From an uncultured Prevotella sp. (GTDB lineage Bacteria; Bacteroidota; Bacteroidia; Bacteroidales; Bacteroidaceae), in the NCBI GenBank assembly GCA_945787895.1, contig CALZJQ010000013.1:1-34637 (forward strand): DNA of 34,637 nt, in the 5' to 3' direction. A program made the position numbers and the translations under genes. Within the stretch, counting starts at the first letter, position 1; every line of letters begins with the position of its first letter. Of this stretch, positions 4,299-32,024 are shown piece by piece. The notes under the pieces were generated by a model, which was not told the DNA's origin, made no database searches, and saw nothing but the letters and a program-made list of their open reading frames with translations.

Positions 4299-4414
4299 CG
4301 GTTTGGTGGTTTAGTTGTTTGGTTGTTTGGTTGTTTGGTTGATAGTAATTGTCTCCATTGTGCCACAAACAACTAAACAACAAAACAACTAAACAACAAG
4401 ACAACAAAACAACA
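4299..4414 (+). repeat. Long intergenic hairpin element A (octamer-repeat arms)
   Basis: The G/T-rich left arm (4300-4340) is built of TTGTTTNG octamers. A 25-nt loop (4341-4365, GATAG...TGCCA) is followed by an A/C-rich right arm (4366-4414) of CAACAAAA/CAACTAAA-type octamers. The arms pair throughout, with mismatches mainly at the one variable octamer position. The right arm ends 7 nt before the dusB start codon and so forms its translation-initiation region. The loop is homologous, in reverse orientation, to the loop of element D. Confidence 0.75.
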
Positions 4415-4421
4415 ATGCAAA

Positions 4422-5453
4422 ATGAACATCGGCAACATAACACTCCCAGAACGCCCTCTCTTCCTCGCTCCCATGGAGGATGTGACGGATATAGGCTTCC
4501 GAATGCTGTGCAAACGCTTCGGAGCACAAATGGTATATACGGAATTTGTCAGCGCAGAAGCCTTGGTAAGGTCTATAAAAAGCACTGTCAGCAAACTGAC
4601 AGTATGCGATGAAGAAAGACCTGTAGGAATACAAATATACGGGCGTGATGCAGAAGCTATGGTCGAAGCCGCAAGAATAGTAGAGGATCAGGCGCACCCC
4701 GACATCATCGACATCAACTTCGGATGCCCCGTAAAGAAAGTGGCATCGAAAGGAGCAGGAGCCGGTATGCTGCAGGACATACCCAAACTGCTTGACATCA
4801 CGCGGCAGGTAGTGAACGCAGTGAAGACTCCCGTCACGGTAAAGACAAGGTTAGGATGGAGCAACGAGCGCATCGTCATGGGAAACAATCCCTCCGAACC
4901 CTACCTCATAAGCAACCCAGACCCCGACACCGGCATCATTACCGACCTTGCAGAACGACTGCAGGACTGCGGAATACAGGCCCTTACCATACACGGACGC
5001 ACCCGCTCACAGATGTACACAGGCAATGCCGACTGGTCATTAATAGGGGAAGTGAAAAGAAATCCGCGCATTCATATCCCAATAATAGGCAACGGAGACA
5101 TCACTTCGCTGCAACAAGCCGATGAAGCCTTCGACAAATATGGCGTAGATGCCGTCATGATAGGGCGTGCCACGTTCGGCTGCCCCTGGTTCTTCTCCTC
5201 ACGACAACTGTCACTCGACGAGAAAATCGACGTGCTCCTCGAACAACTGCGCATCAACGTAGAGCGATTAGACGAATACCGCGGCATTCTCCATACACGC
5301 CGTCACCTCGCCGCTACACCTGTATTCAAGGGAATCCCCGACTTCCGACAGACACGTATCGCCATGCTACGTGCCGACACCGTCAAGGAACTGACTTCGA
5401 TAATGGAGGAAGTGCGTGAGAGACTCAAAGGCATTCCATCGCAAAAAGGATGA
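4422..5453 (+). CDS. dusB: tRNA-dihydrouridine synthase, DusB type
   Basis: The 343-residue protein shows the Dus TIM-barrel signatures: FLAPMEDVTD (14-23) for FMN binding, INFGCPVKKV with the catalytic Cys102, GAGAGML, VKTRLGW, LTIHGRTRSQMYTG, and IGRATFGCPWFF near the phosphate-binding end. The enzyme reduces uridines in the tRNA D-loop using NADPH and FMN. Length and motifs fit the bacterial DusB (NifR3-like) group better than DusA or DusC. The chosen ATG gives the standard N-terminus for the family. It overlaps the following GH43 gene by 4 nt (ATGA), so the two are probably translationally coupled even though their functions seem unrelated. No own promoter is evident; the upstream space is hairpin element A. 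Confidence 0.93.
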   Translation: MNIGNITLPERPLFLAPMEDVTDIGFRMLCKRFGAQMVYTEFVSAEALVRSIKSTVSKLTVCDEERPVGIQIYGRDAEAMVEAARIVEDQAHPDIIDINFGCPVKKVASKGAGAGMLQDIPKLLDITRQVVNAVKTPVTVKTRLGWSNERIVMGNNPSEPYLISNPDPDTGIITDLAERLQDCGIQALTIHGRTRSQMYTGNADWSLIGEVKRNPRIHIPIIGNGDITSLQQADEAFDKYGVDAVMIGRATFGCPWFFSSRQLSLDEKIDVLLEQLRINVERLDEYRGILHTRRHLAATPVFKGIPDFRQTRIAMLRADTVKELTSIMEEVRERLKGIPSQKG

Positions 5454-6463
5454 AATCGCAAGATAATGCAATGAAAAAGAATGCTGAAGAATATCAGACA
5501 AGCATCATTTCAGGGAAACATCGTCTGATGATTGCCATGCTTTTTCCCGCCCTTATCCTCTTTTTCCTGCCCTCAAAAGCATGGGGAGAGGAGGAAGAAG
5601 TGTATCTATATACCTCCTTTCACGAACCCTCCACCGACGGACTGAGATACCTTTACAGCGAGGACGGACTGCATTGGGACAGCATTCCCGGCATCTGGCT
5701 CGTGCCAGAGCAGGGCAAAGTGCTGCGTGACCCGTCAATAATCATGGACCCTGACAGCACCTTTCACCTTGTATGGACTACACAATGGAAAGGAAACAAG
5801 TCGTTCGGATATGCCAAATCTCACGACCTAATACATTGGACTGACGTAAAAGAGATAGAAATAATGTCGGGAAAGGAGACTGACAACGTATGGGCTCCCG
5901 AACTCTTCTACGATGAAGACAACGGCAAGTTTCTCATAATATGGGCATCACGCATACCAGAACGAGAATATACAGCGGCTGATACTCTCGGTAAAAATGC
6001 CTGCCATCGGCTATGGTACACCACAACAAAGGACTTCCTCTCATTCTCTGAACCGCAAAGATACTACGACCCAGGCTTCAACAGCATAGACGGATACCTC
6101 ATCAAACGAGCTAATGCCAACTATGTCCTTATCCTCAAAGACAACAGAAAGCCCGGATACAGCCACCTTTTCTGCGCCTTTTCTTCCTCACCATACGGAC
6201 CTTTCCATTCTCCGAGCACTGCTTTCTCACCAACATCAAGCGAAGGTCCCTGCGCTATACCGGCGGATGACGGATGGATAATCTATTATGACCATTACGG
6301 CAATCATCGTTTTGGTGCTGTGTTCACCACCGATTTCCACTCCTTTTCACCTATTGACGAACACATTTCCTTACCCCGAAACCATAAGCATGGCAGCATA
6401 ATAAAGGTAAAAAGGAAAATTATCGACGAAATCCTTTCCTCAGCATCAAAGCATAATGCGTAA
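5450..6463 (+). CDS. Exported glycoside hydrolase, family 43-like beta-propeller
   Basis: The 337-residue protein has a hydrophobic export signal at about residues 27-46 (LFPALILFFLPSKAWG) behind an unusually long N-terminal region. The ATG at 5471 (M8) or 5528 (M27) may therefore be the true start. It has a GH43-type five-bladed propeller pattern: RDPSI with a likely catalytic Asp94, repeated blade motifs such as HLVWTTQW and HDLIHWTDV, and NVWAPELF with the likely acid Glu151. GH43 enzymes mostly release arabinose or xylose from plant polysaccharides. With the pectate lyase at 14685 in the same window, arabinan or pectin side chains are a plausible but unproven target. The start overlaps the dusB stop, so the two are co-transcribed. 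A remote GH43-like family without activity cannot be excluded. Confidence 0.75.
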   Translation: MKSQDNAMKKNAEEYQTSIISGKHRLMIAMLFPALILFFLPSKAWGEEEEVYLYTSFHEPSTDGLRYLYSEDGLHWDSIPGIWLVPEQGKVLRDPSIIMDPDSTFHLVWTTQWKGNKSFGYAKSHDLIHWTDVKEIEIMSGKETDNVWAPELFYDEDNGKFLIIWASRIPEREYTAADTLGKNACHRLWYTTTKDFLSFSEPQRYYDPGFNSIDGYLIKRANANYVLILKDNRKPGYSHLFCAFSSSPYGPFHSPSTAFSPTSSEGPCAIPADDGWIIYYDHYGNHRFGAVFTTDFHSFSPIDEHISLPRNHKHGSIIKVKRKIIDEILSSASKHNA

Positions 6464-6521
6464 TATTGCCATTATTCCGCATAAATTATCTATTGTATAT
6501 CCGCAAAACTTTTTCAAATAT

Positions 6522-6553
6522 TTTGGTTTTGTAACAACTTTGTATTATCTTTG
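6522..6553 (+). promoter_or_regulatory. Predicted promoter of the metallophosphoesterase operon
   Basis: TTTG (6522-6525), a 20-nt spacer, then TATCTTTG (6546-6553) match the Bacteroidetes -33/-7 consensus. The start codon lies 26 nt after the -7 box. Confidence 0.65.
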
Positions 6554-6579
6554 CAGTCTCAAAATAACAAAAAAAATAC

Positions 6580-7401
6580 ATGGATATGATGAGGAAAATG
6601 ACAGAACGAGTGCCGTTGTTCCTTCTCACGATGCTCATGATAGCCTGCGATACAGTCTTCGATGTGCATCCTTACGATACTCGAATAAAAGGCGAAACGG
6701 ATATAAATGCGAAGAACATAGCAAAAATAGAGAGCCTTTTCAAGGACAGAGATACTCTCATTATTGCTGTGATAAGCGACTCACATCAATGGTATAATGA
6801 CCTGGAAGATGAGATTGCAGACATCAATCGTCGCGATTCCATCGACTTTGTCATGCACCTCGGCGACATAACGGACTTCGGAGCGACGCAGGAATACGTA
6901 TGGGCAAGGGATAGATTACAACGACTCAACGTACCTTACGTAGTGATGCAGGGCAATCATGACTGCCTTGGCACGGGTAATCAGACATTCGACAAGATGT
7001 TTGGGAACAACGATTTCTCGTTTATAGCAGGAAGAATAAAGTTTTTGATGATAAATACCAATGCCATAGAATACGATTATTCCGAACCTGTCCCCGACTT
7101 TTCCTTCCTCGAAAAGGAAGCCGTCACTGACACATCACTGTTCGATCGCACCATCGTTTGTATGCACGCAAGACCTTATAGCGAGCAATTCAATAACAAT
7201 GTAGCGAAGCCTTTCAACTATTATCTCCATAATTTCCCTGACCTTCTCTTCTGCCTTTACGGTCACGGACACCATACTGAGGAGCATGATATCTTTGAGG
7301 ACGGGACGATATATTACGAAACGGCATCGGCAGAAAAACGTGAATACCGCATAATAACAATAACAAAGGAGGGCTATAACCATGAGATTATCACATTTTA
7401 A
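6580..7401 (+). CDS. Lipoprotein calcineurin-like metallophosphoesterase
   Basis: The 273-residue protein starts with a lipoprotein signal (TMLMIAC, lipidated Cys23), so it is probably anchored in a membrane facing the periplasm or surface. The metallophosphoesterase motifs are all present: SDSH (D67, H69), HLGDITD (G95, D96), GNHD (125-128), CMHARP and GHGHHTE near the C-terminus. Together they form the two-metal centre that hydrolyses phosphoesters. The substrate is unknown. It has its own promoter, and its last 20 nt overlap the start of the next gene, an unidentified envelope protein, so the two form an operon. Alternative in-frame starts at M3 or M4 would change only the first few residues. 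Confidence 0.88.
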   Translation: MDMMRKMTERVPLFLLTMLMIACDTVFDVHPYDTRIKGETDINAKNIAKIESLFKDRDTLIIAVISDSHQWYNDLEDEIADINRRDSIDFVMHLGDITDFGATQEYVWARDRLQRLNVPYVVMQGNHDCLGTGNQTFDKMFGNNDFSFIAGRIKFLMINTNAIEYDYSEPVPDFSFLEKEAVTDTSLFDRTIVCMHARPYSEQFNNNVAKPFNYYLHNFPDLLFCLYGHGHHTEEHDIFEDGTIYYETASAEKREYRIITITKEGYNHEIITF

Positions 7402-8062
7402 GCTAATGACAACAGCCCTTCTCATCATGGCTGCAAGCACTTTATGTGCCGAAACGAAAGGCGACAGCATTCTTGTCAGCGACACTACCAACCATTTCAA
7501 CCGCTATGACAAGCGTATTCACCGTTACAGAGCACAATGGGAGAACCTCATTCCTACGCAGCACATAATGCAATTTGCAGGCAATATGGGTCTTATGTCC
7601 GTAGGAATAGGTTGGGATTACGGCAGACATTGCCAGTGGGAAACGCATTTCCTCATAGGTTTGGTACCAAAGTATGACTCAGATCACGTAAAAATCACGT
7701 TCACACTAAAGCAGAATTTCATACCATGGTCAGTGACTCTGAATGACGGTTGGTCGTTTGAACCATTGGAATGTGGTTTATATTTCAATTCTGTTCTCGG
7801 CTCAGATTTCTGGTCTAAGCAACCGACAAAGTACAACAGCGGCTATTATCCCTTCTCTACACGCTTCCGTCCAAACGTCTTTCTTGGACAAAGAATTACA
7901 AAAGAGATACCACATAACACAAGAAGATACATCAAAAGCATCACTGCTTTCTATGAGTTAAGTACCTGCGACATATATTTCATGCCCTTTTTCCGCAATG
8001 GCAACGCTCGTTTCTGGGACGTTTTCGGGCTTTCTCTCGGTCTGAAGTTCCAGTTGTTGTAG
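7382..8062 (+). CDS. Unknown exported protein, probable outer-membrane beta-barrel
   Basis: I do not recognise this 226-residue protein. A signal peptide is clear (residues 1-23, LLIMAASTLCA). The mature part is rich in aromatic residues and in alternating polar/apolar strands (for example WETHFLIGLVP, HVKITFTLKQNFIPW, FGLSLGLKFQLL at the end). That pattern suits a small outer-membrane barrel. The gene starts inside the end of the lipoprotein metallophosphoesterase, so it is probably co-translated with it, and the two may work together at the envelope. It ends just before hairpin element B, which separates it from the convergent S46 peptidase gene. Confidence 0.7.
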   Translation: MRLSHFKLMTTALLIMAASTLCAETKGDSILVSDTTNHFNRYDKRIHRYRAQWENLIPTQHIMQFAGNMGLMSVGIGWDYGRHCQWETHFLIGLVPKYDSDHVKITFTLKQNFIPWSVTLNDGWSFEPLECGLYFNSVLGSDFWSKQPTKYNSGYYPFSTRFRPNVFLGQRITKEIPHNTRRYIKSITAFYELSTCDIYFMPFFRNGNARFWDVFGLSLGLKFQLL

Positions 8063-8071
8063 GGGATGTTC

Positions 8072-8192
8072 GTGGGTTGTAGGTTTTTGGTTGTAGGTTT
8101 TTGGTTGATAATGCGTGAACTGACGGAGTATTTTTCAGGAGCCAAGGCTAACCTAACCAAAAACCCACAACCCACAACCAAAAACCAAAACA
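8072..8192. repeat. Long intergenic hairpin element B (heptamer-repeat arms)
   Basis: The left arm (8072-8106) is made of GGTTGTA and GGTTTTT heptamers and the right arm (8152-8192) of CCCACAA and CCAAAAA heptamers, around a loop of about 45 nt. The arm-loop border TTGATA is shared with element A. It lies between convergent genes and ends 3 nt from the S46 peptidase stop codon, so it may also end transcription from both sides. Confidence 0.7.
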
Positions 8193-8195
8193 AAA

Positions 8196-10364
8196 TCACC
8201 TCACTCCCATCTCTCGGAGCAGACGCTCTTCTTTGCCCCATTTGTCCATCAAATAGATGACATAACGGATATCTACACCGATGCAGCGGGCGAGTTTCTT
8301 GTCGAAGAAGATGTCGGCAGAGAGGCTATCCCAGTTGCCGTCGAAGGCGAGACCTATGAGATTACCCTTTCCATCGAACATCGGGCTGCCTGAGTTTCCG
8401 CCCGTTATGTCGTTGTTTGTAAGGAAACAGAGGTGCATCTTGCCAGTATTACGGTCGGTATAAGGTCCGAAATCCTTAGCTGACATTAGTTCATGCATGA
8501 CAGGTTCGGCGAAATACTCAAAGTTATACTTTCCCTTTGGAGCCGTTTTCTCGTCGCCGAGCTTCATCTTATCCACGATACTCTCTGCTGAAGTATAGAA
8601 TCCCGAATCCTTTCCACCAAGGTCATATCCTCCCACTTGTCCGTAAGAGAGGCGTAATGTGAAGTTGGCATCAGAGTAATGTGGCAGATCTTGCTCCATG
8701 CGTATCTTGGCATCACACAGATAACGCTCCTGCAGGGCGATGCAATCACCGATGGAATCCATCTCGATACGCAGTTCGCTGAGTATGGCAGACAGGTCGT
8801 TGCTCATCTGAATGCCGAGGTCTTTGTCAGTCTTGTCTTTGAGGAAATATATCTTCGCCCCTTTCTTCATGAGTATGGAGTTGGCGAAAATCTCATTGAC
8901 GTATGCCTCATAGTCGCCACCAAACTTCGTGTCTATGGTGTTGTAGAAATCAGGAATCCATCTTTTCTCCACGCTTTCACGATAGTTTTTGAGTAATGCT
9001 ACGAGTATTTCCTTTTCCGTTGCTTCATCCCAAGTGTCGGTATTGTCGTCAAATTCGACGTATTGCCTGTTCTTTTTCTTCTGCAACCCCTTTACCTCCA
9101 TTCCGAGAGCGTAGCGCAAAGCCCTTGCCGTCACTTCCGACCCACGGTACATTGTCTCCGAAAAGAAGGTCATAGTGCGCTGCAAGTCATAGTTGGACTG
9201 GTAGAGATGGTACATGACGGGGAAGTTGAGTTTGCCCTTCAGGTAGCCTGTAGTGTCGATATAGTTGCGGACCATGTCCTCATGTCTCTGCTTCATCTCG
9301 ATGATGCCGATGGAGTCGATGCACTTGTTCATGCCGATGGCATTCTTCCAGTAGTTGGATGACTGCGCATATTTGGAGTCATACTTGATACGTACTGCTT
9401 CGTCGGCACGCATGTGGCGCAGCATTATCTCCTGACGGATGCCACGTACCTTGATGCGAGGCTCATGTACAGCGTCACGCATTTGCCTGATACCATAGCT
9501 GGAGAGGTATCTTTCAGTGCTTCCTGGGTAGCCCATGGTCATTGCGAAGTCCCCGTTCTTGTAGCCGTCAAGCGACACTTTCGCCCATTTCTTCGGATGA
9601 TAAGGCACGTTGTCCTTGCTATATTTTGCAGGTCTGCCCGACACGGGGTCACAATAGATGCGGAATACGGAGAAGTCGCAGGTCTGTCTGGGCCACATCC
9701 AGTTGTCTGTTTCACCCCCAAACTTACCCATTGACTTAGGAACAGTAAAGACAAGTCTGACGTCTGTGAAGTCCTGATATACGGTAAGGTAATATTTATT
9801 ACCCTCGTAGAAAGGCTTTACCTCGGCTCTTAGCGTAGAGTCAACAGCCTTTACACGTTTGTTTTCCTCATCTTCTACTGAGTCGATAAGTTCCTGTTGC
9901 TTGTCGAGAGTCATGGAGAAGATGCCGAGACTATCCATTCTGTGCGTGATATCCTCCTGCGAAACCATAAATCCTACAAAGAGATTTTCGTTTGGAAGCT
10001 CCTCTTCGAAGGACTGAGAGCAGAATCCATTGAGCATATAGTCATGCTCTACGGTGCTATGACTGCGTATTGCTTCAAAGCCACAGTGGTGGTTTGTGAA
10101 GACGAGACCGTCGGGAGAGACGACCACTCCTGAGCAGAAACCTCCGAAATTGACTACGGCCCGCCCTATTGCGTCGTCGTCAGCGAACAGTTTACTCTGT
10201 GGTAATGAGAAGCCCTCAGCCTGCATTTGGCGGAAGGCTGCGTCGGGAAGGTTGTAGAGAGTCCACATACCCTCGTCGGCACGAACCGATGATGTGAAGC
10301 ACATCATGGCGATAGCGGTGCATAATAATGCAAGATGCTTTACCTTATTCATATATATATACAA
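8196..10364 (-). CDS. S46 family dipeptidyl-peptidase, DPP7-like
   Basis: The 722-residue protein has a signal peptide (through SSVRA, about residue 29) and the chymotrypsin-like S46 signatures: TNHHCGF (His92/93), WPRQTCDFSVFR (Asp229) and TGGNSGSP (Ser658). S46 enzymes remove dipeptides from oligopeptide N-termini in the periplasm and feed amino acids to asaccharolytic or protein-using Bacteroidetes. In the DPP7/DPP11 pair a single residue after the serine decides specificity: Arg gives Asp/Glu preference (DPP11) and Gly gives hydrophobic preference (DPP7). Here the site reads LAFDGNWD with Gly676, which favours DPP7. The start may be M1 or M5; both fit the promoter found just upstream. It is transcribed in the same direction as pnp but separated from it by a terminator. 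Confidence 0.92.
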   Translation of the reverse strand: MYIYMNKVKHLALLCTAIAMMCFTSSVRADEGMWTLYNLPDAAFRQMQAEGFSLPQSKLFADDDAIGRAVVNFGGFCSGVVVSPDGLVFTNHHCGFEAIRSHSTVEHDYMLNGFCSQSFEEELPNENLFVGFMVSQEDITHRMDSLGIFSMTLDKQQELIDSVEDEENKRVKAVDSTLRAEVKPFYEGNKYYLTVYQDFTDVRLVFTVPKSMGKFGGETDNWMWPRQTCDFSVFRIYCDPVSGRPAKYSKDNVPYHPKKWAKVSLDGYKNGDFAMTMGYPGSTERYLSSYGIRQMRDAVHEPRIKVRGIRQEIMLRHMRADEAVRIKYDSKYAQSSNYWKNAIGMNKCIDSIGIIEMKQRHEDMVRNYIDTTGYLKGKLNFPVMYHLYQSNYDLQRTMTFFSETMYRGSEVTARALRYALGMEVKGLQKKKNRQYVEFDDNTDTWDEATEKEILVALLKNYRESVEKRWIPDFYNTIDTKFGGDYEAYVNEIFANSILMKKGAKIYFLKDKTDKDLGIQMSNDLSAILSELRIEMDSIGDCIALQERYLCDAKIRMEQDLPHYSDANFTLRLSYGQVGGYDLGGKDSGFYTSAESIVDKMKLGDEKTAPKGKYNFEYFAEPVMHELMSAKDFGPYTDRNTGKMHLCFLTNNDITGGNSGSPMFDGKGNLIGLAFDGNWDSLSADIFFDKKLARCIGVDIRYVIYLMDKWGKEERLLREMGVR

Positions 10365-10381
10365 TATTTTTATTTCAAGTG

Positions 10382-10413
10382 CAAAGTTAATTATTTTGGT
10401 TCATACTACCAAA
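10382..10413 (-). promoter_or_regulatory. Predicted promoter of the S46 peptidase gene
   Basis: On the minus strand TTTG (10410-10413), a 20-nt spacer and TAACTTTG (10382-10389) match the Bacteroidetes consensus, and the start codon follows 17 nt after the -7 box. Confidence 0.7.
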
Positions 10414-10430
10414 AATTAGCATTGTATTCA

Positions 10431-10490
10431 TTTCTTTCTGTTGCTTTGGCTATTTCTTTCCGTTGCTTTGGCTATTTCTTTCCGTTGCTA
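10431..10490. repeat. 22-bp tandem repeat, about 2.7 copies, upstream of the S46 promoter
   Basis: Units beginning TTTCTTTC and ending GTTGCTTTGGCTA occur at 10431-10452, 10453-10474 and, truncated, 10475-10490, with one T/C difference. The array starts 18 bp beyond the -33 element of the peptidase promoter, where an activator could bind. That role is inference. Confidence 0.75.
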
Positions 10491-10536
10491 TTTCCTTACA
10501 GAGATTTTGCCTTGTTCATTTCCTACCACGATTAAA

Positions 10537-10570
10537 AAGCGGACATACCAATGGTCTGGTATGTCCGCTT
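10537..10570 (-). terminator. Intrinsic terminator of pnp
   Basis: A perfect 14-bp stem (AAGCGGACATACCA with its complement) surrounds a 6-nt loop. On the minus strand the stem ends in CTTTTT, 34 bp beyond the pnp stop codon. Confidence 0.85.
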
Positions 10571-10603
10571 GATTATTTTGACATCAATATTGCGTTTCTA
10601 TGC

Positions 10604-12922
10604 TTAGAAATCATTGTCGTGGTCAAGACTGTCATTGAAGTCTTTTGGCTCATGATTGTCATGATAGTCGTTGCGACGTTCATGGCGTTCTGTACGCTCT
10701 GGACGAGGACGACGCTCTCCACGCTCTGGACGTGGACCACGACGCTCACCGCGCTCTGGACGAGGACGACGCTCACGCTCCACGTATCCCTCAGGCTTTT
10801 CGATGAGTACACGATGTGAGAGCTTGTATTTTCCAGTCTTAGGATCGATTTCAAGTAGCTTCACCTTAATCTTGTCACCTTCCTTGATGCCAGCTTCCTC
10901 TACGGTTTCAAGACGCTTCCAGTCAATTTCTGAGATATGGAGCAAGCCGTCTTTACCAGGAAGAATCTCTACGAAGCATCCGTAAGGCATGATGGAGCGC
11001 ACCGTTCCCTCGTATATCTCGCCTATTTCGGGGATTGCCACGATAGCCTTTATCTTTCCGAGAGCGGCGTCGATAGAGTCCTTGTTAGGAGCAGAAACCT
11101 GCACTTTGCCTACTCCGTCGATTTCGTCGATGGTGATGGTAGCGCCGGTATCTTCCTGCATCTGCTGTATAATCTTTCCTCCAGGACCGATGACAGCTCC
11201 GATAAACTCCTTAGGTATCTCTATCTGCACGATGCGTGGTACCTGTGGTTTCATCTCTGCACGAGGTTCTGCTATAGTATCAGTGATGCAGTTGAGGATA
11301 TGTTCGCGTCCTGCCTTAGCCTGAGCGAGGGCTTTTTCGAGGATTTCGTATGACAATCCGTCGCACTTGATGTCCATCTGTGTAGCAGTAAGTCCGTTCT
11401 TTGTGCCCGTTGTCTTGAAGTCCATGTCGCCGAGGTGGTCTTCATCTCCGAGGATATCGGAGAGTACGGCGTACTTATCTTCTCCAGGGTTCTTGATAAG
11501 TCCCATTGCTATGCCTGAAACAGGGTTCTTCATCGGTACGCCTGCATCCATGAGAGCGAGTGTTCCAGCGCATACAGTAGCCATAGAGGAAGAGCCGTTA
11601 GACTCAAGTATCTGGCTTACTACACGTACGGTGTAAGGGAAGTCCTCGGGAATCTGTCCCTTGAGTCCGCGCCATGCGAGGTGTCCGTGACCTATCTCGC
11701 GGCGACCTACGCCACGCTGAGCCTTTGCTTCGCCTGTGCAAAACGGAGGGAAGTTATAGTGCAGGAGGAATTTCATGTAGTATTTCTCCAGAGCTCCATC
11801 GACCATCTTCTCGTCGAGCTTGGTGCCGAGGGTACAAGTGGTGAGTGACTGCGTCTCTCCACGTGTGAAGATAGAAGATCCGTGTGGCATTGGCAGCGGA
11901 GAAACCTCGCACCAGATAGGACGTATCTCGTCGGTCTTTCTGCCATCGAGGCGTACACCCTCGTCGAGGATGCAGCGACGCATAGCGTCTTTCTCCACGT
12001 CATGGTAATATTTGTCGATGAGAGCATACTTCTCTTCCATCTCGTCCTCTGTGAGTTCGGTATGTGCAGCAGCGTAAGCCTCCTTGAATTCATCCTTTAT
12101 AGCCTCGAAAGCCTCGGCGCGAGCGTGCTTTTCGAGAGCTTGCTTTACTACGTCATAGCATTTCTGATAGCAGTCTTTGTTTACCTGCTCTTTGAGTTCT
12201 TCGTCGTTGACCTCATGGCAATATTCGCGCTTTGTGTCAGTGCCGAGCTCCTTCATGAGTTCGTTCTGCATAGCGCACATAGGCTTGATAGCTGCGTGTG
12301 CAGCCTTGAGAGCGTTGAGGAGGTCAGCTTCCTGCACTTCCTTCATCTCTCCTTCCACCATCATGATATTATCTTCGGTAGCTCCTACCATGAGATCCAT
12401 GTCAGCATCCTTCATCTGAGCGAATGTAGGGTTGATGACATATTCTCCATTTATCCTTGCTACCCTTACTTCAGAGATAGGGCATTCGAATGGGATGTCA
12501 GAGCAAGCGAGTGCGCAACTTGCTGCGAAACCAGCAAGAGCGTCTGGCTGATCTACTCCATCAGCGGAGAAAAGGATTACGTTAACATACACCTCAGCGT
12601 GGAAATCGCTTGGGAAGAGAGGTCTGAGAGCGCGGTCCACGAGACGGCATGTGAGGATTTCCTCATCGCTTGCCTTACCCTCGCGCTTGGTAAATCCGCC
12701 GGGGAAGCGTCCTGCAGCGGCGTACTGCTCACGATACTCTACCTGCAGTGGCATGAAATCTGTTCCAGGAACTGCGTCTTTTGCGGCACAAACAGTGGCG
12801 AGGAGCATGGTGTTGCCCATTCTCAGGGTACATGAACCGTCGGCTTGCTTTGCCAATTTTCCAGTCTCAATGGTGATTTCACGTCCATCAGGCAGTGAGA
12901 CAGTCTTTGTAATTACGTTCAT
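10604..12922 (-). CDS. pnp: Polyribonucleotide nucleotidyltransferase (PNPase)
   Basis: The 772-residue protein has both RNase PH-like cores (first: [20 protein letters not shown]; second: [12 protein letters not shown] and [15 protein letters not shown]), the KH domain ([12 protein letters not shown]) and the S1 domain ([28 protein letters not shown]). It degrades RNA 3'-to-5' using phosphate and can add tails. After the S1 domain comes an extra tail of 58 residues (715-772). This is first Arg/Pro/Glu-rich, with repeated RPERGERR units, and then acidic (DNSDL-like end). E. coli PNPase, about 711 residues, lacks it. The tail is encoded by a tandemly repeated DNA stretch. The gene has its own promoter and a 5' leader hairpin, and ends at a strong terminator. 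Confidence 0.96.
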
Positions 12923-12963
12923 CGAAAAAATAAATCTTTATTGTCTTAATATGTACATCATCT

Positions 12964-12981
12964 GCATGGTTGTCGCCATGC
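12964..12981 (-). promoter_or_regulatory. Hairpin in the pnp leader
   Basis: GCATGG and CCATGC form a 6-bp stem with a 6-nt loop in the predicted pnp 5' untranslated region, about 42 nt before the start codon. In E. coli pnp is autoregulated through an RNase III-cut leader stem; a similar role here is only an analogy. Confidence 0.4.
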
Positions 12982-12998
12982 TAAAATTAAAAATCGTG

Positions 12999-13006
12999 CA
13001 AATTTA
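12999..13006 (-). promoter_or_regulatory. Predicted -7 box of pnp
   Basis: TAAATTTG on the minus strand matches TAnnTTTG, giving a leader of roughly 70 nt. The -33 position is poorly matched. Confidence 0.45.
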
Positions 13007-13236
13007 ATAAAAAAACGTCTAACTTACAATAATTTATGCAATCTTTTATTGTTTTTTTGCAATTAGGCTGATTTGTTGCCTGGCCGTCTGGTTCACGATG
13101 GAGTCTGATGACATCAACAAAAGCGATAACTTTCCAGCCATTCAGGCTTTGGAAAGAACATGATGACCTTGCTTTTGCCAACCTTTGCCTTTCTGCTTGA
13201 TTATTGCCCACCTGTCTGTGCTTGCAGGCGGGGCTG
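13007..13236. other. Intergenic stretch between pnp promoter and the methyltransferase stop
   Basis: I see no convincing gene here. A short G/C-rich inverted repeat (CCTG with CAGG within about 13207-13234) lies just downstream of the methyltransferase stop, but it lacks a T-run on the minus strand and is a weak terminator candidate. Confidence 0.4.
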
Positions 13237-14511
13237 TCACGCCTTCTTGCAGAAAAGGAGGAGGTGGTCGTTGGCTGAGGTGGTGGTGGCGAAGATGTAG
13301 GTGTCTCCGCCGTCCTTGAGCTTCAGTTTCCTGCGGAGGGCATCGGTGGAGAGGGGGAAATTCCTCACTGCTATGTTGGCTGAACTTATCTGCTGCAGGG
13401 CTGCGCGGAGTTCTTTCTTGTTCATCGACGTGATGGTGAGCACCTTGAACGTGCGTCCCGGGAAACCTTCTATGGGCGCATGACTGAGGAAGAGGTGGGA
13501 GTTGGGACTTACCTGGGGTATGGAGAAGGCTGTCTCTATCTGGCTGAAGATGCCTGCCTTCATGATTGCCGCATTCGGTACGTGAAGGTAGAGGGCGAAA
13601 GTGAGGGAGGGCATGGGCGCAATGTCTATTCCCTGTGGCGGAACTGGGGGTGGGACAGTGTCGGAAAGTGCATCGGTGACGAATGTCTGACGGTCGTTGA
13701 CACAATGGCATGACACGATGGAATGGTATTTTTCCGAGAGGATTACGAGCAGTTCCTTACACTCATTGGCGGTTGCCACGACATGAACCTCACGCACTGC
13801 ATCCTTGGAAGCGGCGGCATCATTGAGAGCCTTCACCGTGCCGTGGATGTCGAGCATGGGAGATAGTTTCAGCATGACGACGGCGGAGTGCTGCAAGAGC
13901 GTGGGAAGGAGGGCGGTGACGTCGGGAGTGCAGTCGGTGATGGCGTATGTGCGCTGTCCGTTTGTGTCCCTACGGGCAGGGTCCATGAATACGGCAACGG
14001 GCTTTCCATGAGCGATGGAACCGATATTTTCCACTGCCTCTCGGGAGTCGGAGCAGAGAATCTCAGCCGACTGCAGCCCGAGCAAGGGAAGGTTGTGGCG
14101 GGCTATGTCGCAGAGATGCTGCTGTCTCTCTACATAAGTGGCAGAAGAGAAACGCTTTGCCAAGAATGAAAAATCTACCCCAAAACCTCCGGTAAGGTCG
14201 ATGAAATGGCAGTTTTTTAAGTCTTCTTCATCGGAAAAGACATTACGGAGGGCACGCTGCAGAGCCTCAACCTTGTAGTTTGCCGTCTGCTCCGAGGAGC
14301 ATTGTTCCATGGAGATGTGCGGCGGAAAGATGATGTCAGCTATGCCATGCCACGAGGGCAGCTTCGCCTTTGCCGTCTGCCTGCCAGCTATCTGGTCGAG
14401 GGCAAATGGCATATCTATTCCGTCACCCGGCTTTTTTGCCAGAGCGAGCCTTCTCACGTCGCCATCAGCGTGCCGCCTTATGTAGTCCTTTGTCTCTTGA
14501 TTGATTGTCAT
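13237..14511 (-). CDS. Class I SAM-dependent methyltransferase with THUMP-like C-terminal region
   Basis: The 424-residue protein has the SAM-binding loop FIDLTGGFGVDFSFLA (G-rich motif at 106-113), the following acidic position in TYVERQQHLC, and a DPARRD motif (D177-D182) in place of the catalytic DPPY/NPPY motif of many RNA and DNA methyltransferases. The C-terminal third (LSPNSHLFLSHA..., ALRRKLKLKDGGDTYIFATT) resembles the THUMP-like domain paired with such enzymes in Bacteroidetes. An RNA substrate is therefore plausible but not shown. No partner gene is adjacent; it stands alone between pnp and the divergent pectate lyase. A -7-like box lies almost at the start codon, so its mRNA may have a very short leader. 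Confidence 0.82.
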   Translation of the reverse strand: MTINQETKDYIRRHADGDVRRLALAKKPGDGIDMPFALDQIAGRQTAKAKLPSWHGIADIIFPPHISMEQCSSEQTANYKVEALQRALRNVFSDEEDLKNCHFIDLTGGFGVDFSFLAKRFSSATYVERQQHLCDIARHNLPLLGLQSAEILCSDSREAVENIGSIAHGKPVAVFMDPARRDTNGQRTYAITDCTPDVTALLPTLLQHSAVVMLKLSPMLDIHGTVKALNDAAASKDAVREVHVVATANECKELLVILSEKYHSIVSCHCVNDRQTFVTDALSDTVPPPVPPQGIDIAPMPSLTFALYLHVPNAAIMKAGIFSQIETAFSIPQVSPNSHLFLSHAPIEGFPGRTFKVLTITSMNKKELRAALQQISSANIAVRNFPLSTDALRRKLKLKDGGDTYIFATTTSANDHLLLFCKKA

Positions 14512-14518
14512 TGTTCGG

Positions 14519-14526
14519 CAAAATTA
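14519..14526 (-). promoter_or_regulatory. Possible -7 box of the methyltransferase gene, near-leaderless
   Basis: TAATTTTG on the minus strand matches TAnnTTTG and ends 7 nt before the ATG, which would leave almost no leader. No -33 element is at the right distance, so this is weak. Confidence 0.3.
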
Positions 14527-14610
14527 TCGCATTTCGTACAATTTATCATTACATATTGCATATAAAATAAGGTGAAATTGTCTGTTTTAACATAATTTAC
14601 GACGAATTGT

Positions 14611-14641
14611 TTTGTCGATATAGCAAAACGCAATACCTTTG
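14611..14641 (+). promoter_or_regulatory. Predicted promoter of the pectate lyase gene
   Basis: TTTG (14611-14614), a 19-nt spacer and TACCTTTG (14634-14641) match the Bacteroidetes consensus 43 bp before the start codon. Confidence 0.7.
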
Positions 14642-14684
14642 CGAAAACTTTCCAGAAGCCTAATTACTAACTACAAAAAAATAC

Positions 14685-16976
14685 ATGAAGAAAATCTTTA
14701 CCCTTGCAGTGACGTTGCTCATGACGCTCGCTGCCTCAGCATCCCTTGCGCTGAAAGGTGCAGGCGGATGGAACGAATCTGCGTGGATGGAGTTTACGGG
14801 GCTATCATCCGACTACTCTTACTACAACGCCTACGTCTCATCAGACGGCACGACGTGGCAGAAACTTGACGGACAACTGGTGCGTTCCTACGGCAGTTAC
14901 GGGCGTGTCGATGCCCTCGGACTGAAGGCAGGCTCGTACAAGCTGCGTGTCGTGCCCGTGAAAGGCGAGACAGAGGTCAGCGGTGATGCCGTGGATTCCG
15001 GCACTCTCGAAGTAAGAAGTTTCAGCAGAAGCGGTTATGCGCACTATAACGCCACCGCAGGAATAGGAGCCTACAACAACGACGGCACGCTGAAGTCCGG
15101 CGCAAGGGTGCTCTATGTCACCGCTGCCAACGCCAAGACTGTCAGCCTTGAGATGCAGACAGGCTCTTCAAAATATGAGACGCGCACTGGTATTCAGAAC
15201 ATTCTGCAGGCATACGAGAAGGGTGTCGAGCAGCGTCCTCTCGCCGTACGTATCATAGGTACTCTCACAGAGAATGACATGGACGACCTCGGCAGTTCCT
15301 CCATCGGACTGCAGGTTAAAGGCAAGTCGCAGAACATGAACCTCACCGTGGAAGGAGTAGGCGTCGATGCCACGCTCTACGGATTCGGAGTGCTTGCCCG
15401 CAGCTGCCGCTATGTGGAGTTCCGCAACTTCGCCGTCATGCTTCATCCCGAGGACGGAATGAGCTTCGACACCAACAATGAGCACATCTGGGGTCACCAC
15501 CTCGACATCTTCTACGGTCAGAACAAGGGTGGCGACAAGGAGAAAGGCGACGGTTCGTTCGACGTCAAGGGCACTCAGTATGCCACCGTGGACAACGTCC
15601 ACTATTGGGACACCGGCAAATGTAACCTCAATGCCAACGACGATGTGGTGGATTACGTGACATATCACCACAACTGGTTTGACCATTCCGACTCCCGCCA
15701 CCCCCGCGTTCGTGTGTCAAAGCACCTCCACGTCTATAACAACTACTACGACGGCAATGCCAAATACGGCATAGGCTCTACTACAGGCTCATGTATTTTC
15801 TCCGAGCGCAACTACTTCCGCAACTGCAAATACCCGATGCTCATCTCCAAGCAAGGCTCTGACATCAACAACGGCGTAGGCTCTTCCAGCGATACCAAAG
15901 GCACATTCTCCAGTGAGGACGGCGGTATCATCAAGTCATTCGGCAACTATATGACAGGTGAGAAACGCTACCAGCCGTACAACGCTTCGGATGCCGTCAA
16001 CTCCATCCATTTCGATGCCTACGAAGCAAGTTCACGTGACGAGAAAGTGCCGGAGACAGTGGTGACGCTAAAGGGCGGTACCGGGTACAATAACTTCGAC
16101 ACGGAGAGTTCTTTCTACAGCTATACTCCGACAGAGGTGCAGGATGTTCCATCTACAGTGACTGGCATATACGGTGCGGGACGATGCCAGAAAGGCGACT
16201 TCGGCTTCTCTTTCGACAATGCCGTCGATGATGCGTCCTACGACATCAACAGTGCCCTCGAGTCAAAACTCAAGGCATACAAGACCTCTCTTGTTGCTGT
16301 CATTGGTGATGAACAGACACAGGTCACTCCCGAACCAACGCCTGATCCCAACCCAGACCCCACGCCCGACCCCGACCCGGACCCAGATCCTGACCCGACA
16401 CCTGTCCCCACACCAGGCGAGGACAGCGGAATATGCCATTTCACCGACAAAAAGCCGTCACTCTCTTTCGTCACAGTATCGGGCAATTACTCAAATTCTA
16501 AGGGCAGCGTGGAGTACAACGGCGTGACATACTCCATAGCATTGAAGATAGAGACCAAGACCAACATTCAGATGAAGCCGACCGTAAACGGCAAGATAAC
16601 GCTCATCTTCGGCGGCAGTACCTCCGCAGCAGGCAAGGCTATCAAGATAGATGGCGTGAAGGTTACCCTCGATGCTAACGGCAGATACACCTTCGATGTC
16701 AAGGCAGGCACCACATATACCCTGACAAAGGGTGACTCCATCAACCTCTTCCTCATAGTGTTGGAGTCGGACAGCACTTCCGTTGACCCCGACCCAACTC
16801 CAGAGCCTGAGCCAGACCCGACTCCTGACGACCCATCCACAGCAATAGAGAATGTGGAAGCAGGCGCTGCGGATGCAAAGACGATAAACATCGTCGATGC
16901 TATGGGCCGCACGGTAAACACTCCTGTCAAGGGCAAGATTTACATCATCAACAGGAAGAAGTATCTGAAGAGGTAG
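14685..16976 (+). CDS. Secreted pectate lyase, polysaccharide lyase family 1, multidomain
   Basis: The 763-residue protein has a signal peptide (1-19), an N-terminal beta-sandwich-like segment (about 23-110), and a right-handed beta-helix lyase domain. The lyase domain carries the PL1 signature VTYHHNWFDHSDSRHPRVR (about 325-343, with the catalytic Arg region) and the upstream FDTNNEHIWGHHLDIFYG. It cuts polygalacturonate by beta-elimination. A Pro/Asp/Thr linker of DP repeats (about 546-580) leads to a further beta-rich domain (CHFTDKKPSLSFVTVSG..., about 583-700) of unknown role, possibly carbohydrate binding. A second DP-rich linker (700-727) and a short C-terminal sorting-like end follow (INIVDAMGRTV...GKIYIINRKKYLKR). 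The end suggests type IX secretion and surface display. The gene is monocistronic with its own promoter. Confidence 0.93.
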   Translation: MKKIFTLAVTLLMTLAASASLALKGAGGWNESAWMEFTGLSSDYSYYNAYVSSDGTTWQKLDGQLVRSYGSYGRVDALGLKAGSYKLRVVPVKGETEVSGDAVDSGTLEVRSFSRSGYAHYNATAGIGAYNNDGTLKSGARVLYVTAANAKTVSLEMQTGSSKYETRTGIQNILQAYEKGVEQRPLAVRIIGTLTENDMDDLGSSSIGLQVKGKSQNMNLTVEGVGVDATLYGFGVLARSCRYVEFRNFAVMLHPEDGMSFDTNNEHIWGHHLDIFYGQNKGGDKEKGDGSFDVKGTQYATVDNVHYWDTGKCNLNANDDVVDYVTYHHNWFDHSDSRHPRVRVSKHLHVYNNYYDGNAKYGIGSTTGSCIFSERNYFRNCKYPMLISKQGSDINNGVGSSSDTKGTFSSEDGGIIKSFGNYMTGEKRYQPYNASDAVNSIHFDAYEASSRDEKVPETVVTLKGGTGYNNFDTESSFYSYTPTEVQDVPSTVTGIYGAGRCQKGDFGFSFDNAVDDASYDINSALESKLKAYKTSLVAVIGDEQTQVTPEPTPDPNPDPTPDPDPDPDPDPTPVPTPGEDSGICHFTDKKPSLSFVTVSGNYSNSKGSVEYNGVTYSIALKIETKTNIQMKPTVNGKITLIFGGSTSAAGKAIKIDGVKVTLDANGRYTFDVKAGTTYTLTKGDSINLFLIVLESDSTSVDPDPTPEPEPDPTPDDPSTAIENVEAGAADAKTINIVDAMGRTVNTPVKGKIYIINRKKYLKR

Positions 16977-16988
16977 AGTTTTTTTTCC

Positions 16989-17162
16989 TTGCGGGATTTA
17001 TGGTCTTTGGGGTGTTGAGGTCGTTAAGGTTATTCGGAATCTTTCATATCGTACCAGAACGGTCATTACGTCAATGACGGTCATTACGTCAATGACTTTA
17101 ATTACGACATTAACGAAAAGAAAAAAGCCTTAAAAACCTCAAGACCCAAAGCCCCCGCCAAT
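16989..17162 (+). repeat. Long intergenic hairpin element C with a tandem repeat in its loop
   Basis: The left arm (16989-17030, G/T-rich) and right arm (17127-17162, A/C-rich) pair imperfectly over about 35 nt; for example, the stretch CTTTGGGGTGTTGAGG faces CCTCAAGACCCAAAG. The loop of about 95 nt holds two exact copies of an 18-bp unit. It starts about 12 nt after the pectate lyase stop codon and after a T-run. Confidence 0.6.
17059..17094. repeat. Exact 18-bp tandem duplication in the loop of element C
   Basis: ACGGTCATTACGTCAATG occurs twice head to tail (17059-17076, 17077-17094). Each unit, with the following AC, contains an inverted GTCATT/AATGAC pair, so each copy could form its own small hairpin. 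Confidence 0.85.
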
Positions 17163-17229
17163 CTCTCACAAAACAGGACAAAAACGGAATCAAAGATATT
17201 GCATCACAATATCAATGATATTACACGAT

Positions 17230-17288
17230 AAAAGCGTTGATATTACCGGGTAAAAGCCAAGCTTTTGCAGGGTAATATCAACGCTTTT
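17230..17288. terminator. Strong nested hairpin, probable bidirectional terminator
   Basis: A perfect 18-bp stem (17230-17247 with 17271-17288, AAAAGCGTTGATATTACC and its complement) encloses a second 6-bp stem (AAAAGC/GCTTTT, loop CAA, 17252-17266). The plus strand continues TTTTTG and the minus strand ends CGCTTTTATCG. It could end transcription of the 46-residue ORF from the right and of the pectate lyase from the left. The sequence just before it (about 17191-17225) repeats the words GATATT and AATATC in inverted fashion. Confidence 0.65.
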
Positions 17289-17385
17289 TGTATTATACTG
17301 ACTGACAGCCAGTTGCACGTAAGCAAGAGAGAGCAGGGCAATAGGACAAAAACGGACTGCAGACCGGAGAACGCCAGTGCGCTTC

Positions 17386-18926: not shown

Positions 18927-19029
18927 GTTGTTTTGTTGTTTGGTTGTTTAGTTGTTTGGTTGTTTGTGGCACAGACGAGTCGAATACTATCAACAAAACA
19001 ACAAAACAACAAAATAACAAAACAACAAT
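18927..19029 (+). repeat. Long intergenic hairpin element D (octamer-repeat arms)
   Basis: The left arm (18927-18966) has TTGTTTNG octamers. A 25-nt loop (18967-18991, TGGCACA...ACTATC) precedes a right arm (18992-19029) of CAACAAAA octamers. The loop aligns with the reverse complement of element A's loop at 19 of 25 positions with no gap. The right arm ends just before the coaD start codon. Confidence 0.75.
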
Positions 19030-19033
19030 ACCC

Positions 19034-19471: not shown

Positions 19472-19481
19472 TATAACATTC

Positions 19482-19616
19482 GGCTTTAAGGTTTTAAGGT
19501 TATACGGTTTTAAGGTTATACGGAATATACCGGTAGCCCTTACAAACCTCCGCATAACCGTAAAACCATATAACCGCATAACCGTAAAACCATATAACCG
19601 CATAACCGTATAACCG
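19482..19616 (+). repeat. Long intergenic hairpin element E (octamers with 24-nt higher-order repeat)
   Basis: The left arm (about 19482-19523) alternates GGTTTTAA and GGTTATAC. The right arm (19550-19616) is a perfect octamer ladder: CCGCATAA, CCGTAAAA, CCATATAA, repeated, then CCGCATAA, CCGTATAA, CCG. The two arms are complementary in register, but the right arm is longer. The element lies between coaD and ybeY on the same strand, with the A/C arm next to the ybeY start. Confidence 0.75.
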
Positions 19617-19632
19617 CAACAAGACATAAGAC

Positions 19633-23464: not shown

Positions 23465-23607
23465 GTGGTCTGGTTGTTTAGTTGTTTAGTTGTTTAGTTG
23501 TTTGGTGGGGTGTACTCACCTCATCTGCAACAACCTGCCAACCAAACAACTAAACAACAAACCGACCAAACAACAAAACAACAAAACAACAAAACAACCA
23601 AACAACT
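23465..23607 (+). repeat. Long intergenic hairpin element F (octamer-repeat arms)
   Basis: The left arm (23465-23510) has GTTGTTTA octamers. The loop (23511-23537) is unlike those of A and D. The right arm (23538-23607) is longer and carries CAAACAAC/CAACAAAA units. It ends 3 nt before the start codon of the protease gene, so it provides the entire leader. Confidence 0.75.
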
Positions 23608-30497: not shown

Positions 30498-31843
30498 AGA
30501 AACAGAAAAAAAGAAGAATAAGAAAAGGAAGGCTGGCAATATTGCTGGCCTTCCTCGTTGCAATAATCACAGGTATATGCTACGGAGTATATGCTCTCGT
30601 ATCACTCTTTTTACGGAATGACGCAGAAAATGCCGTGCAGCAGGAAACGGTGCTCATGCCCGAAGTGACCAAAGAGATGCTGGCGTGCGACTCCGTCATG
30701 GCGCACAAGTTAGACAGCCTCATGCACGTACCGCAGCGTTTGGACACGTCAAAGATTGCTATCTCCGTCTATGACGTGACCACACGCCGCAGCATCTTCA
30801 CCTTTCATGCCGACGAACGCCTCATCCCTGCCTCCTGCATGAAGATTTCCACCGCTATAGCGGCACTCAAAAGCCTCGGCATGGACCATCAGTATCGCAC
30901 GCATATCCTCGCCATGGGAGAGATGCATCGCGACACACTCGTGGGAAATCTCCTCCTTCAGGCAGACGATGACCCGCTGTTGGAAAACTTCGACTCGCTG
31001 ATAGGCATCATGAAGCGAAAGGGCGTAAGGCATGTACGGGGCAACGTCTATATCAACCTTGAGCGAGAAGACACGCTGCGCCCCCATCCCTCTGCCAAAG
31101 CATGGGACATTCCTTATCATAAAACACCGCTGTTGCTGCGCGGCAAACGCTATGTAGAGCGCAATTTCCATGCCTCCCTACGAATGAAAGGGGTCACCGT
31201 GCGACGTGATGCCACGGTCAAGGCAAGGCTGTCACAAGGCCCTCTCGGCGGAGGACGGTACCATTACCTTGCTACAGTGTCACATCCGCTCCGTGACGTC
31301 ATCACACCCATGCTCATACATAGCAGCAATATCAAGGCTGACGCCGTCTTCTATCACCTTGATAGGAAAAAAGGACTCATGCCAGAGAGACGGATGCAAT
31401 GGGACAGGAAGCACTATGCAGAGAACTTCTGGCAAAAGCAATCACTCTTTCCCGACTCTGTAATGTCGCTCTTCGCATTCCACGACGGCTCCGGACTGTC
31501 ACCCCTGAACCGCCTTTCAGCCAACTCCCTCGTGCAGATGCTCCTCTTCGCCTACGATGACAAGCCTCTTAGGGACTTCCTCATCGACGAAGCCCTTGCC
31601 TCTACAGCGACACCAAAGCGACGTGGCTCGCTCCTCACACGCATGATGCACTCCGATTATCAAGGCAGAATATTCTGCAAGACTGGCACCATGACAACGC
31701 AAGGCTCCTCTTCTCTCGCTGGTTATATCGTAGGAAATGACGGACACTGGTACATCTTCTCCATCATCAACAGCGACTCTCCCGTAGCAGAATCCCGCAT
31801 CTTCCAGGACCGTCTCTGCAAGATGATGATGAGGGGGGAGTAG
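30494..31843 (+). CDS. dacB: D-alanyl-D-alanine carboxypeptidase/endopeptidase, PBP4 (S13) family
   Basis: The 449-residue protein has one N-terminal membrane segment (about 13-40) after a very basic start (KKQKKRRIRKGR). The three penicillin-binding motifs are present: SCMK (Ser114, Lys117), SSN in IHSSNIKAD (near 277) and KTG in FCKTGTM (Lys396). It trims or cuts peptidoglycan cross-bridges in the periplasm. The SxxK motif is usually followed by the long S13 insert domain, which fits the spacing here. It appears membrane-anchored rather than freely periplasmic. It is translationally coupled to lepB by an ATGA overlap and closes the dapB-lepB-dacB operon; hairpin element G begins right after the stop. 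Confidence 0.92.
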   Translation: MKKQKKRRIRKGRLAILLAFLVAIITGICYGVYALVSLFLRNDAENAVQQETVLMPEVTKEMLACDSVMAHKLDSLMHVPQRLDTSKIAISVYDVTTRRSIFTFHADERLIPASCMKISTAIAALKSLGMDHQYRTHILAMGEMHRDTLVGNLLLQADDDPLLENFDSLIGIMKRKGVRHVRGNVYINLEREDTLRPHPSAKAWDIPYHKTPLLLRGKRYVERNFHASLRMKGVTVRRDATVKARLSQGPLGGGRYHYLATVSHPLRDVITPMLIHSSNIKADAVFYHLDRKKGLMPERRMQWDRKHYAENFWQKQSLFPDSVMSLFAFHDGSGLSPLNRLSANSLVQMLLFAYDDKPLRDFLIDEALASTATPKRRGSLLTRMMHSDYQGRIFCKTGTMTTQGSSSLAGYIVGNDGHWYIFSIINSDSPVAESRIFQDRLCKMMMRGE

Positions 31844-31847
31844 GGTT

Positions 31848-32024
31848 TTGTTGTTTTGTTGTTTGTTTTTGTTTTAGTTGTTTGTTTTTGTTTTAGTTGT
31901 TTGTTTTTGTTTTTGTTTTTGTTTTAGTTTTAGTTTTAGTTTTAGTTTTAGTTTTAGCAATAAGAAAAGCTATCAACAAGACAACTAAACAACAAAATAA
32001 CAAAAACAAAAACAAAAACACGAA
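31848..32024 (+). repeat. Long intergenic hairpin element G with expanded left arm
   Basis: The left arm (31848-31957) mixes TTGTTT, TTTTTG and TTTTAG units and ends in six exact TTTTAG hexamers (31922-31957). The loop ends in CTATCAAC (as in D). The right arm (about 31975-32024) of CAACAAAA and CAAAAA units is less than half as long, so much of the left arm has no partner. Confidence 0.7.

Follow-up and report, generated by a model that had tools for sequence, protein, structure and literature searches.

Intergenic hairpins with arms of degenerate tandem words in a Prevotella genome: candidate foldback-like repeats

Cyanobacterial STRRs are intergenic tandem units, usually of 7 bp, which can fold into hairpins and in some cases lie near a gene's 3' end (PMC2670836). 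Eukaryotic foldback elements, e.g. Tm1 of nematodes and FB of Drosophila, carry unequal inverted ends made of a variable number of tandem units around a conserved inner part (PMC3169594). Within the Bacteroidales the BrickBuilt element of Porphyromonas gingivalis is intergenic, MITE-like and contains tandem units (PMC4596501). REP/REPIN sequences are high-copy intergenic palindromes often situated 3' of genes (PMC3733652), and TAACTGA heptamer arrays are intergenic 7-nt words of Beggiatoaceae, Cyanobacteria and five Bacteroidetes (PMC4679880). Among the matches listed from open-licence PMC papers there was none on the hairpin architecture reported here in Bacteroidales. We analysed it in a stretch of 34,637 nt from an uncultured Prevotella sp. 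(the window).

Hairpins of the window and their cores

The original prediction held that seven spaces of the window share one design (A to G, Table 1). Strong folding was confirmed for all seven with z-values of -3.4 to -6.9 against 100 dinucleotide shuffles per space, and the hairpins started, as claimed, straight after a stop codon at a distance of 1 to 13 nt. Arms of 6-8-nt units were present in six spaces. C was rejected as a member of the family, the detector which identified inverted arms of 22 to 46 nt at A, B, D, E, F and G having returned nothing for this different, irregular hairpin. The predicted ladder periods of 6, 7 and 8 nt were recovered by Tandem Repeats Finder. For G, described as a ladder of 6-mers, the program yielded periods of 6 and 18 nt, but by eye G appears to be of the 8a type with an overgrown, asymmetric left arm. 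The statement that a G/T-rich arm comes first is true of either strand by construction, the element being palindromic, and the order thus carries no direction. The window had no Rfam match at gathering thresholds and no tRNA gene, and its positions 1-20000 contained 13 terminator-like sites versus a mean of 17.4 in shuffles.

Table 1. Positions of the seven hairpins, their arms and their cores in the window
Hairpin	Space	Class	Arms	Core and other features
A	4299..4414	8a	4306-4337 + 4366-4397	8a core 4338-4373, core model E 6.3e-7
B	8072..8192	7	8075-8106 + 8155-8186	arms 84% complementary; convergent genes on the sides
C	16989..17162	irregular long hairpin, outside the periodic family	none by the arm detector	z -5.6; internal 18-nt direct repeat
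D	18927..19029	8a	18926-18962 + 18991-19027	core 18994-18959, minus strand, E 2.7e-7
E	19478..19616	8b	19478-19523 + 19558-19603	words GGTTTTAA/GGTTATAC
F	23465..23607	8a words	23465-23509 + 23562-23606	
G	31848..32024	8a-like right arm	31902-31923 + 31999-32020	left arm long, turned into 6-mers by decay or expansion

The loops were not random, and classes 8a, 7 and 8b each enclosed similar cores specific to the class. The 8a core model was built from 33 loops after four misaligned ones had been dropped; the core was found at 50 places with E<1e-3, and 51 of 57 hits were usable. Its orientation was random with 15 sense versus 17 antisense copies, the core of D being opposite to that of A, and the loop of F did not match the model. 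With crude block shuffles as the null, 6 of 21 class 7 loops exceeded the 99% level, indicating a weak homology to the 8a core, while none of 11 class 8b loops did so and 30 loops from other species showed no homology. Beyond the census set, 169 loci (2.43 Mb) contained a single significant hit of the model, at L138, which is the window itself. Class-specific cores common to different species were absent among those tested.

Copy number, turnover and origin of the hairpins

The window hairpins are members of high-copy families. The genome-wide search suggested by the original prediction was run on 30% of the window's own genome (41 sequences, 831,238 bases) and detected 91 word-class hairpins. 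For 15 of these sequences such hairpins numbered 53 in the real DNA versus none in a Markov-1 control. Element A had at least 101 matches in the own genome, where 40 of 289 candidates were scored. Avoidance of coding DNA, also anticipated, was complete in the 30% sample: none of 153 called hairpins was located within a gene. The families are thus dispersed, high-copy, non-coding and intergenic like MITEs.

As the best explanation we favor, with about even confidence, a dispersed bacterial repeat of the foldback or MITE kind that is kept as a hairpin behind genes. Every hairpin would represent one copy of a small dispersed unit with a foldback-like layout, in which inverted arrays of one degenerate word flank a class-specific core of about 20-50 nt. 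Copies would spread by some MITE-like transposition or copying route, and insertions would survive mainly directly 3' of stop codons. Selection may then keep the hairpin or the word, perhaps as a gene-end boundary or stabiliser, and units would be duplicated or lost by slippage inside each arm.

Repeated insertion, one of the processes proposed beforehand, was supported by the comparison of sister species, in which the dispersed copies come and go. One insertion was clearly derived: in G111 an element occupies a 90-nt gap where the genes of G158, G210 and G233 overlap by 4 nt. No target duplication was visible there, and the ends of 90 elements displayed no excess of direct repeats (own 3.23 versus swapped 3.04 nt). 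The elements had no fixed outer end, and no transposase was linked to them among the Y1 transposases (PF01797) of the own genome. These negative results weigh against the foldback-like reading.

A possible, if rather unlikely, alternative is that the hairpins were formed in place and selected as 3'-end or boundary structures, with the similar words of one genome arising by recombination between loci or gene conversion instead of transposition. Constraint on the arms agrees with this alternative as well as with the foldback-like reading. In ten clean shared elements, hand-picked after inspection of the comparisons and represented by one genome pair each, substitutions numbered 14/661 in arms versus 29/390 in loops (Fisher 6.6e-5). 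Messy and different-class alignments were left out, as were the usable-looking elements L203:5415 (arms 4/72, loop 2/6) and L201:6601 (arms 4/100, loop 16/110); the total for E1-E3 excludes the G158 copy of E2 with one arm and two loop substitutions. Formation in place would also fit the position of 46 of 62 codirectional elements of the own-genome sample, which were closer to the upstream stop, and the finding that sister species can have hairpins of unlike classes in one and the same space, for example AAATGAA in three of the species and ATTGAAA in another two. An unrelated hairpin often occupied the same space in a sister species, an observation which weighs against the foldback-like reading and is compatible with selection for a hairpin as well as with insertion. 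Among 35 gap pairs, both gaps being at least 60 nt, in which one side had a periodic hairpin without a partner of the same class, 18 carried another long hairpin opposite, 6 of the 18 coming from one space and gap length being uncontrolled.

On the other hand, formation in place is at odds with the insertion at the former gene overlap, with cores that are common to loci in both orientations, and with the hairpins in 7 of 47 divergent gaps of the own-genome sample. The RNA-level analyses argue against it as well. None of 62 hairpins was followed by a U-tract with at least six T among the ten downstream nucleotides (mean 1.37), G-U pairs were not biased in the larger sample (53 versus 57), and the sense fold was lower in only 25 of 62. 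Missing U-tracts likewise spoke against the intrinsic terminator, the ordinary alternative named in advance. Selection on pairing at the RNA level was not seen in the G-U counts, which were also 14 versus 20 for the codirectional elements of a first sample of 37. The absence of RNA-strand bias also counts against the foldback-like reading. A separate observation with the same bearing was made on the L189/L190 element, where 0/28 loop positions and 3/38 of the left arm varied; not every loop varies.

It is improbable that the hairpins are plain slippage arrays of the cyanobacterial STRR type, functionless and hardly mobile. Identical units were indeed more frequent within an arm (0.222) than between the arms of one element (0.153) or between elements (0.134), and changes in unit number were confined to one arm. 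Yet slippage alone yields neither an inverted partner array nor a core common to many loci, and it leaves the stronger conservation of arms than loops unexplained.

We consider it still less probable that the hairpins are REP/REPIN-like palindromes mobilised by a RAYT, an HUH tyrosine transposase. They share high copy number, intergenic location and lineage-specific sequence with REP/REPIN, and one protein has a PDHIHMIV stretch, which we take to be a RAYT-like motif. However, this protein scored below the Pfam cut-off (22 versus 23 bits). Its gene begins close to the end of a contig, which leaves one side out of view, and no class hairpin was seen in the 6 kb around it. GTAG or CGTC end tags were not enriched either, occurring within 10 nt of the outer end in 12 of 90 elements versus 0.19 at random.

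The architecture recurred with other words in other Bacteroidales, at 18 of 80 sampled parE loci; words were 7-8 nt long in the window's genome and 7-11 nt in relatives. We tentatively extend the foldback-like reading to a widespread mobile DNA of Bacteroidales, a core with two inverted arrays of 7-11-nt words, where each lineage has a word of its own and spaces would retain a hairpin through replacements of its sequence family, the role being conserved but not the sequence. In this breadth the proposal is possible but not likely.

Agreement of the two arms

Both arms are built from one degenerate word. They are complementary because they represent the same word in inverted orientation, and their agreement needs no copying between arms. 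The claimed agreement between the arms at each locus was borne out for the class and failed for the individual locus. In 51 8a elements picked by their core, own arms scored 21.05 versus 21.29 for swapped arms (20000 permutations, p=0.70). Elements picked by the detector had favored own arms (8a 26.6 versus 22.4; class 7 22.8 versus 19.3; 8b 21.5 versus 18.3). Because these had been selected for pairing the advantage was set aside, and the core-picked test replaced the detector-picked one. Unit identity between arms (0.153) did not exceed that of shuffles (p=0.13), and left and right arms were uncorrelated in their number of units (r=0.10).

The arms were expected to change together in orthologous spaces. 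Sister species gained or lost units in one arm alone, and the ten clean shared elements had no mirrored substitution (0/14). The 70 listed shared comparisons, many of them repeated from both sides or via overlapping loci, contained one mirrored change, where the two aligned elements belonged to different word classes. Mismatches between the arms were themselves conserved between species. Independent arms in sister strains had been named as evidence against the original prediction, and this is what was observed in relatives with other words, a closely related genome for the window's species being absent from the genus sample. Copying between arms by template switching, a process known in other systems (PMC8794818, PMC8604942) and seemingly favored by the better pairing of own arms in detector-picked elements, is therefore highly improbable after four negative tests (arm swap, unit identity, one-arm changes and mirrored substitutions) and the mismatches kept between species, the arms not being homogenised against each other as in a quasipalindrome maintained in this way. 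The lesson is that the arms of inverted repeats can seem to agree through a shared word and biased ascertainment instead of template switching.

Relation to known repeat systems

If the foldback-like reading is correct, gut and rumen bacteria would commonly carry an architecture described elsewhere from foldback elements of eukaryotes. Such hairpins would reshape gene ends, two overlapping genes having been separated in one species, and would provide natural insertions for testing the effects of long hairpins behind bacterial genes.

Several known repeats differ from the hairpins in their layout. TAACTGA arrays are direct repeats, mostly just 5' of start codons; the main genome contains 169 sets of the direct kind and a single indirect repeat (PMC4679880). 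REP/REPIN sequences are 20-40 bp long and have GTAG or CGTC tags; tandem-unit arms are not described in the portion of PMC3733652 available to us. BrickBuilt has direct repeats of 23 nt enclosed by short repeats at its ends, and its arms are not tandem arrays in the corresponding portion of PMC4596501. MITEs have fixed terminal inverted repeats and target duplications, which were absent here.

The nearest described kinds are the cyanobacterial STRR hairpins and the eukaryotic foldback elements. Like STRRs the hairpins are intergenic and made of tandem units, of 6-8 nt, with only class 7 having the 7-bp unit. The likeness is one of description, and the STRR hosts are cyanobacteria, not Bacteroidales; a conserved core, a species-specific word family or a test of arm independence does not appear in the available part of PMC2670836. 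Foldback elements are eukaryotic, Tm1 units measure 13-15 bp, and outer motifs, 9-bp target duplications and, in some members, a transposase are described (PMC3169594). These features were not found here with Y1 transposases (PF01797) as the only ones covered; in particular target duplications and fixed outer ends were lacking in the 90 elements and the G111 insertion. Yet the Prevotella hairpins resemble foldback elements in their unequal arms of tandem units, whose number varies independently, and their class-specific cores, though not common to the species tested, correspond to the conserved inner domain.

Periodic hairpins of the source genome

The source genome (2.76 Mb on 198 contigs, 88.85% complete) includes the window as its contig 13. 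The relatives of the window's ParE are Prevotella-like; the top named match, with its best segment 94% identical in protein sequence, was a MAG labelled uncultured Bacteroidales, and the nearest congener parE had 79% DNA identity (398 congeners sampled out of a larger group). The long hairpins that the original prediction described in the seven intergenic spaces A to G were borne out by strong folding in 7/7 with z of -3.4 to -6.9. Arms of tandem units, predicted for most of these spaces, were found in six of them; the arms of C were not tandem.

A census of 41 own-genome sequences (831,238 bases, 30% of this fragmented genome) yielded 153 ungapped long hairpins, 91 of which fall into three classes defined by their arm words. 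For 15 sequences a Markov-1 control was run: the simulated versions contained no hairpin, the real ones 53. Loops, the cores between the arms, resemble one another inside each class. The 8a core has a consensus of about GTTGATAGCATTCGACTCCATTGCGAAGACAAACAAC and also exists in a shorter variant; its model matched 50 places of the census sample at E<1e-3. Core orientation with respect to transcription was random (15 sense, 17 antisense). Four words made up 325 of the 461 parsed arm units, the remainder being 70 rarer forms.

Repeats and repeat-associated features (L-numbers, sampled loci; G-numbers, genomes, G000 being the source genome)
Feature	Arm word or motif	Hairpins	Position	Source
Class 8a	GTTGTTTN	54		own-genome census
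Class 7	GGTTNTN	23		own-genome census
Class 8b	GGTTTTAC-like	14		own-genome census
Non-periodic hairpins	AAAAGCGTTGATATTACC...CGCTTTT		window 17230-17288; L021 5841-5901; L020; L023	also many other own-genome stretches
Inverted repeat	TTAAGGTGGGTTCTATTAATTC		window 2674-2997; L009 3691-3884; L020 14707-14906; L023 18523-18819	
22-nt tandem array			window 10430-10489	
27-nt tandem array			window 10694-10776	
RAYT-like gene			G000:C69 ~340-1200 (L199, L200)	
11-nt-unit coreless hairpins			L177 5507; L180 1659 and 11938; L185 3495	sister species
Extended loop			L183, L202 (ortholog of L184:567-663)	G071

Whether the hairpins avoid coding DNA was a point raised with the original prediction: 0/153 were called intragenic by a rough home-made gene caller, with 12 unplaceable. 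Among census gaps of at least 100 nt a word-class hairpin was present in 61/268 codirectional, 14/45 convergent and 7/47 divergent ones. By the same rough gene calls, 46 of 62 codirectional elements were closer to the upstream stop and 14 to the downstream start; with at least 100 nt of slack 15/23 were closer to the stop. This position is compatible with a tolerated insertion or with a 3'-end role alike. There was no U-tract behind the elements (0/62), no G-U asymmetry (53 vs 57) and no better folding of the sense than of the antisense strand (25 vs 37). These results speak against classical terminators and lend no support to selection for RNA pairing. The hairpins may have a role at the level of the DNA or of the word.

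Other repeats were also seen. The non-periodic AAAAGCGTTGATATTACC...CGCTTTT hairpins, often located between convergent genes and with T at the end, look like a bidirectional terminator or a REP-like repeat. Several copies of the inverted repeat TTAAGGTGGGTTCTATTAATTC, with 156-280 nt separating the arms, are probably another MITE or an insertion-sequence remnant. In the window, a 22-nt array (2.7 copies) is intergenic and a 27-nt array lies in the C-terminal end of a gene, the protein of which resembles polynucleotide phosphorylase. A RAYT-like (Y1 transposase) gene, with a Pfam match just under the cut-off, is located close to a contig end.

Arm maintenance and turnover in sister species

Arm-to-arm copying had been proposed to maintain the agreeing arms. 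Own arms outscored swapped arms when elements were chosen by the hairpin detector, an advantage due to ascertainment; in core-picked elements (n=51) own arms did not pair specially (21.05 vs 21.29 for swapped arms, p=0.70). In sister species, with words other than those of the window, 0/14 arm substitutions in ten clean shared elements were mirrored. Mismatches between the two arms were themselves conserved, so copying would not be the keeper of the arms. Unit likeness was 0.222 in the same arm, 0.153 in opposite arms of one element and 0.134 in different elements, and no correlation between the lengths of the two arms was found. Higher likeness within arms and uncorrelated lengths are the prediction of slippage inside each arm.

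The sister species (G071, G111, G158, G210 and G233) are 85-94% alike around parE. Periodic hairpins numbered 100 in 53 of their loci (741,151 bases), some of them counted twice since the loci partly overlap. Elements come and go, as had been considered: they were shared between species, missing or swapped for another class in the same space. In G111 one element occupies a 90-nt gap at a place where the flanking genes of G158, G210 and G233 overlap by 4 nt; by parsimony this element is an insertion. One element has identical arms in G111 and G071, and of the two arms of its G158 copy only the right one differs (+14 nt, one substitution). Another, common to G111 and G158, is 21 nt longer in the right arm in G158; in its left arm a 6-nt difference and three substitutions occur at unmatched places. 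A second design has arms of 11-nt units (ATACCATTATA-like, TCCATCGATNN), lacks a core and has a loop of 3-10 nt. Comparison of G158 with G210 for one such hairpin gave 0/130 substitutions in the arms, the flanks being 85 and 89% alike; its G233 copy is without one 11-nt unit on one side. The G071 ortholog of the element at L184:567-663 has about 104 extra nt in the loop, resembling another 7-mer hairpin, and looks like an element nested within an element.

In ten clean shared elements, hand-picked once the comparisons had been inspected, substitutions amounted to 14/661 sites in arms and 29/390 in loops (Fisher 6.6e-5); three AAATGAA-class elements alone had 0/232 and 9/69. The pattern was not general, as shown by the L189/L190 element with an identical loop (0/28) and a varying left arm (3/38). 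Constraint on the arms is thus likely rather than proven, since sites were few and elements were picked after inspection.

Other species and known kinds of repeat

With the same permissive detector, 18/80 parE loci of other species contained periodic hairpins, 35 in all, mostly with different words, e.g. AAATGAA, GGTAGAG and GGAGTTAAA. Element A of the window had matches in 19/100 genus-sample genomes including its own, many in G021 and G060 and few elsewhere. For G021 and G060, one inspected hairpin locus per genome combined the arm words of the source genome with different loops.

The hairpins have the architecture of a foldback element. Neither target duplications nor end tags were found, nor was a transposase linked to them (one transposase family searched), and they are therefore not assigned to foldback elements. 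Compared by description, STRR hairpins and foldback elements are the closest kinds.
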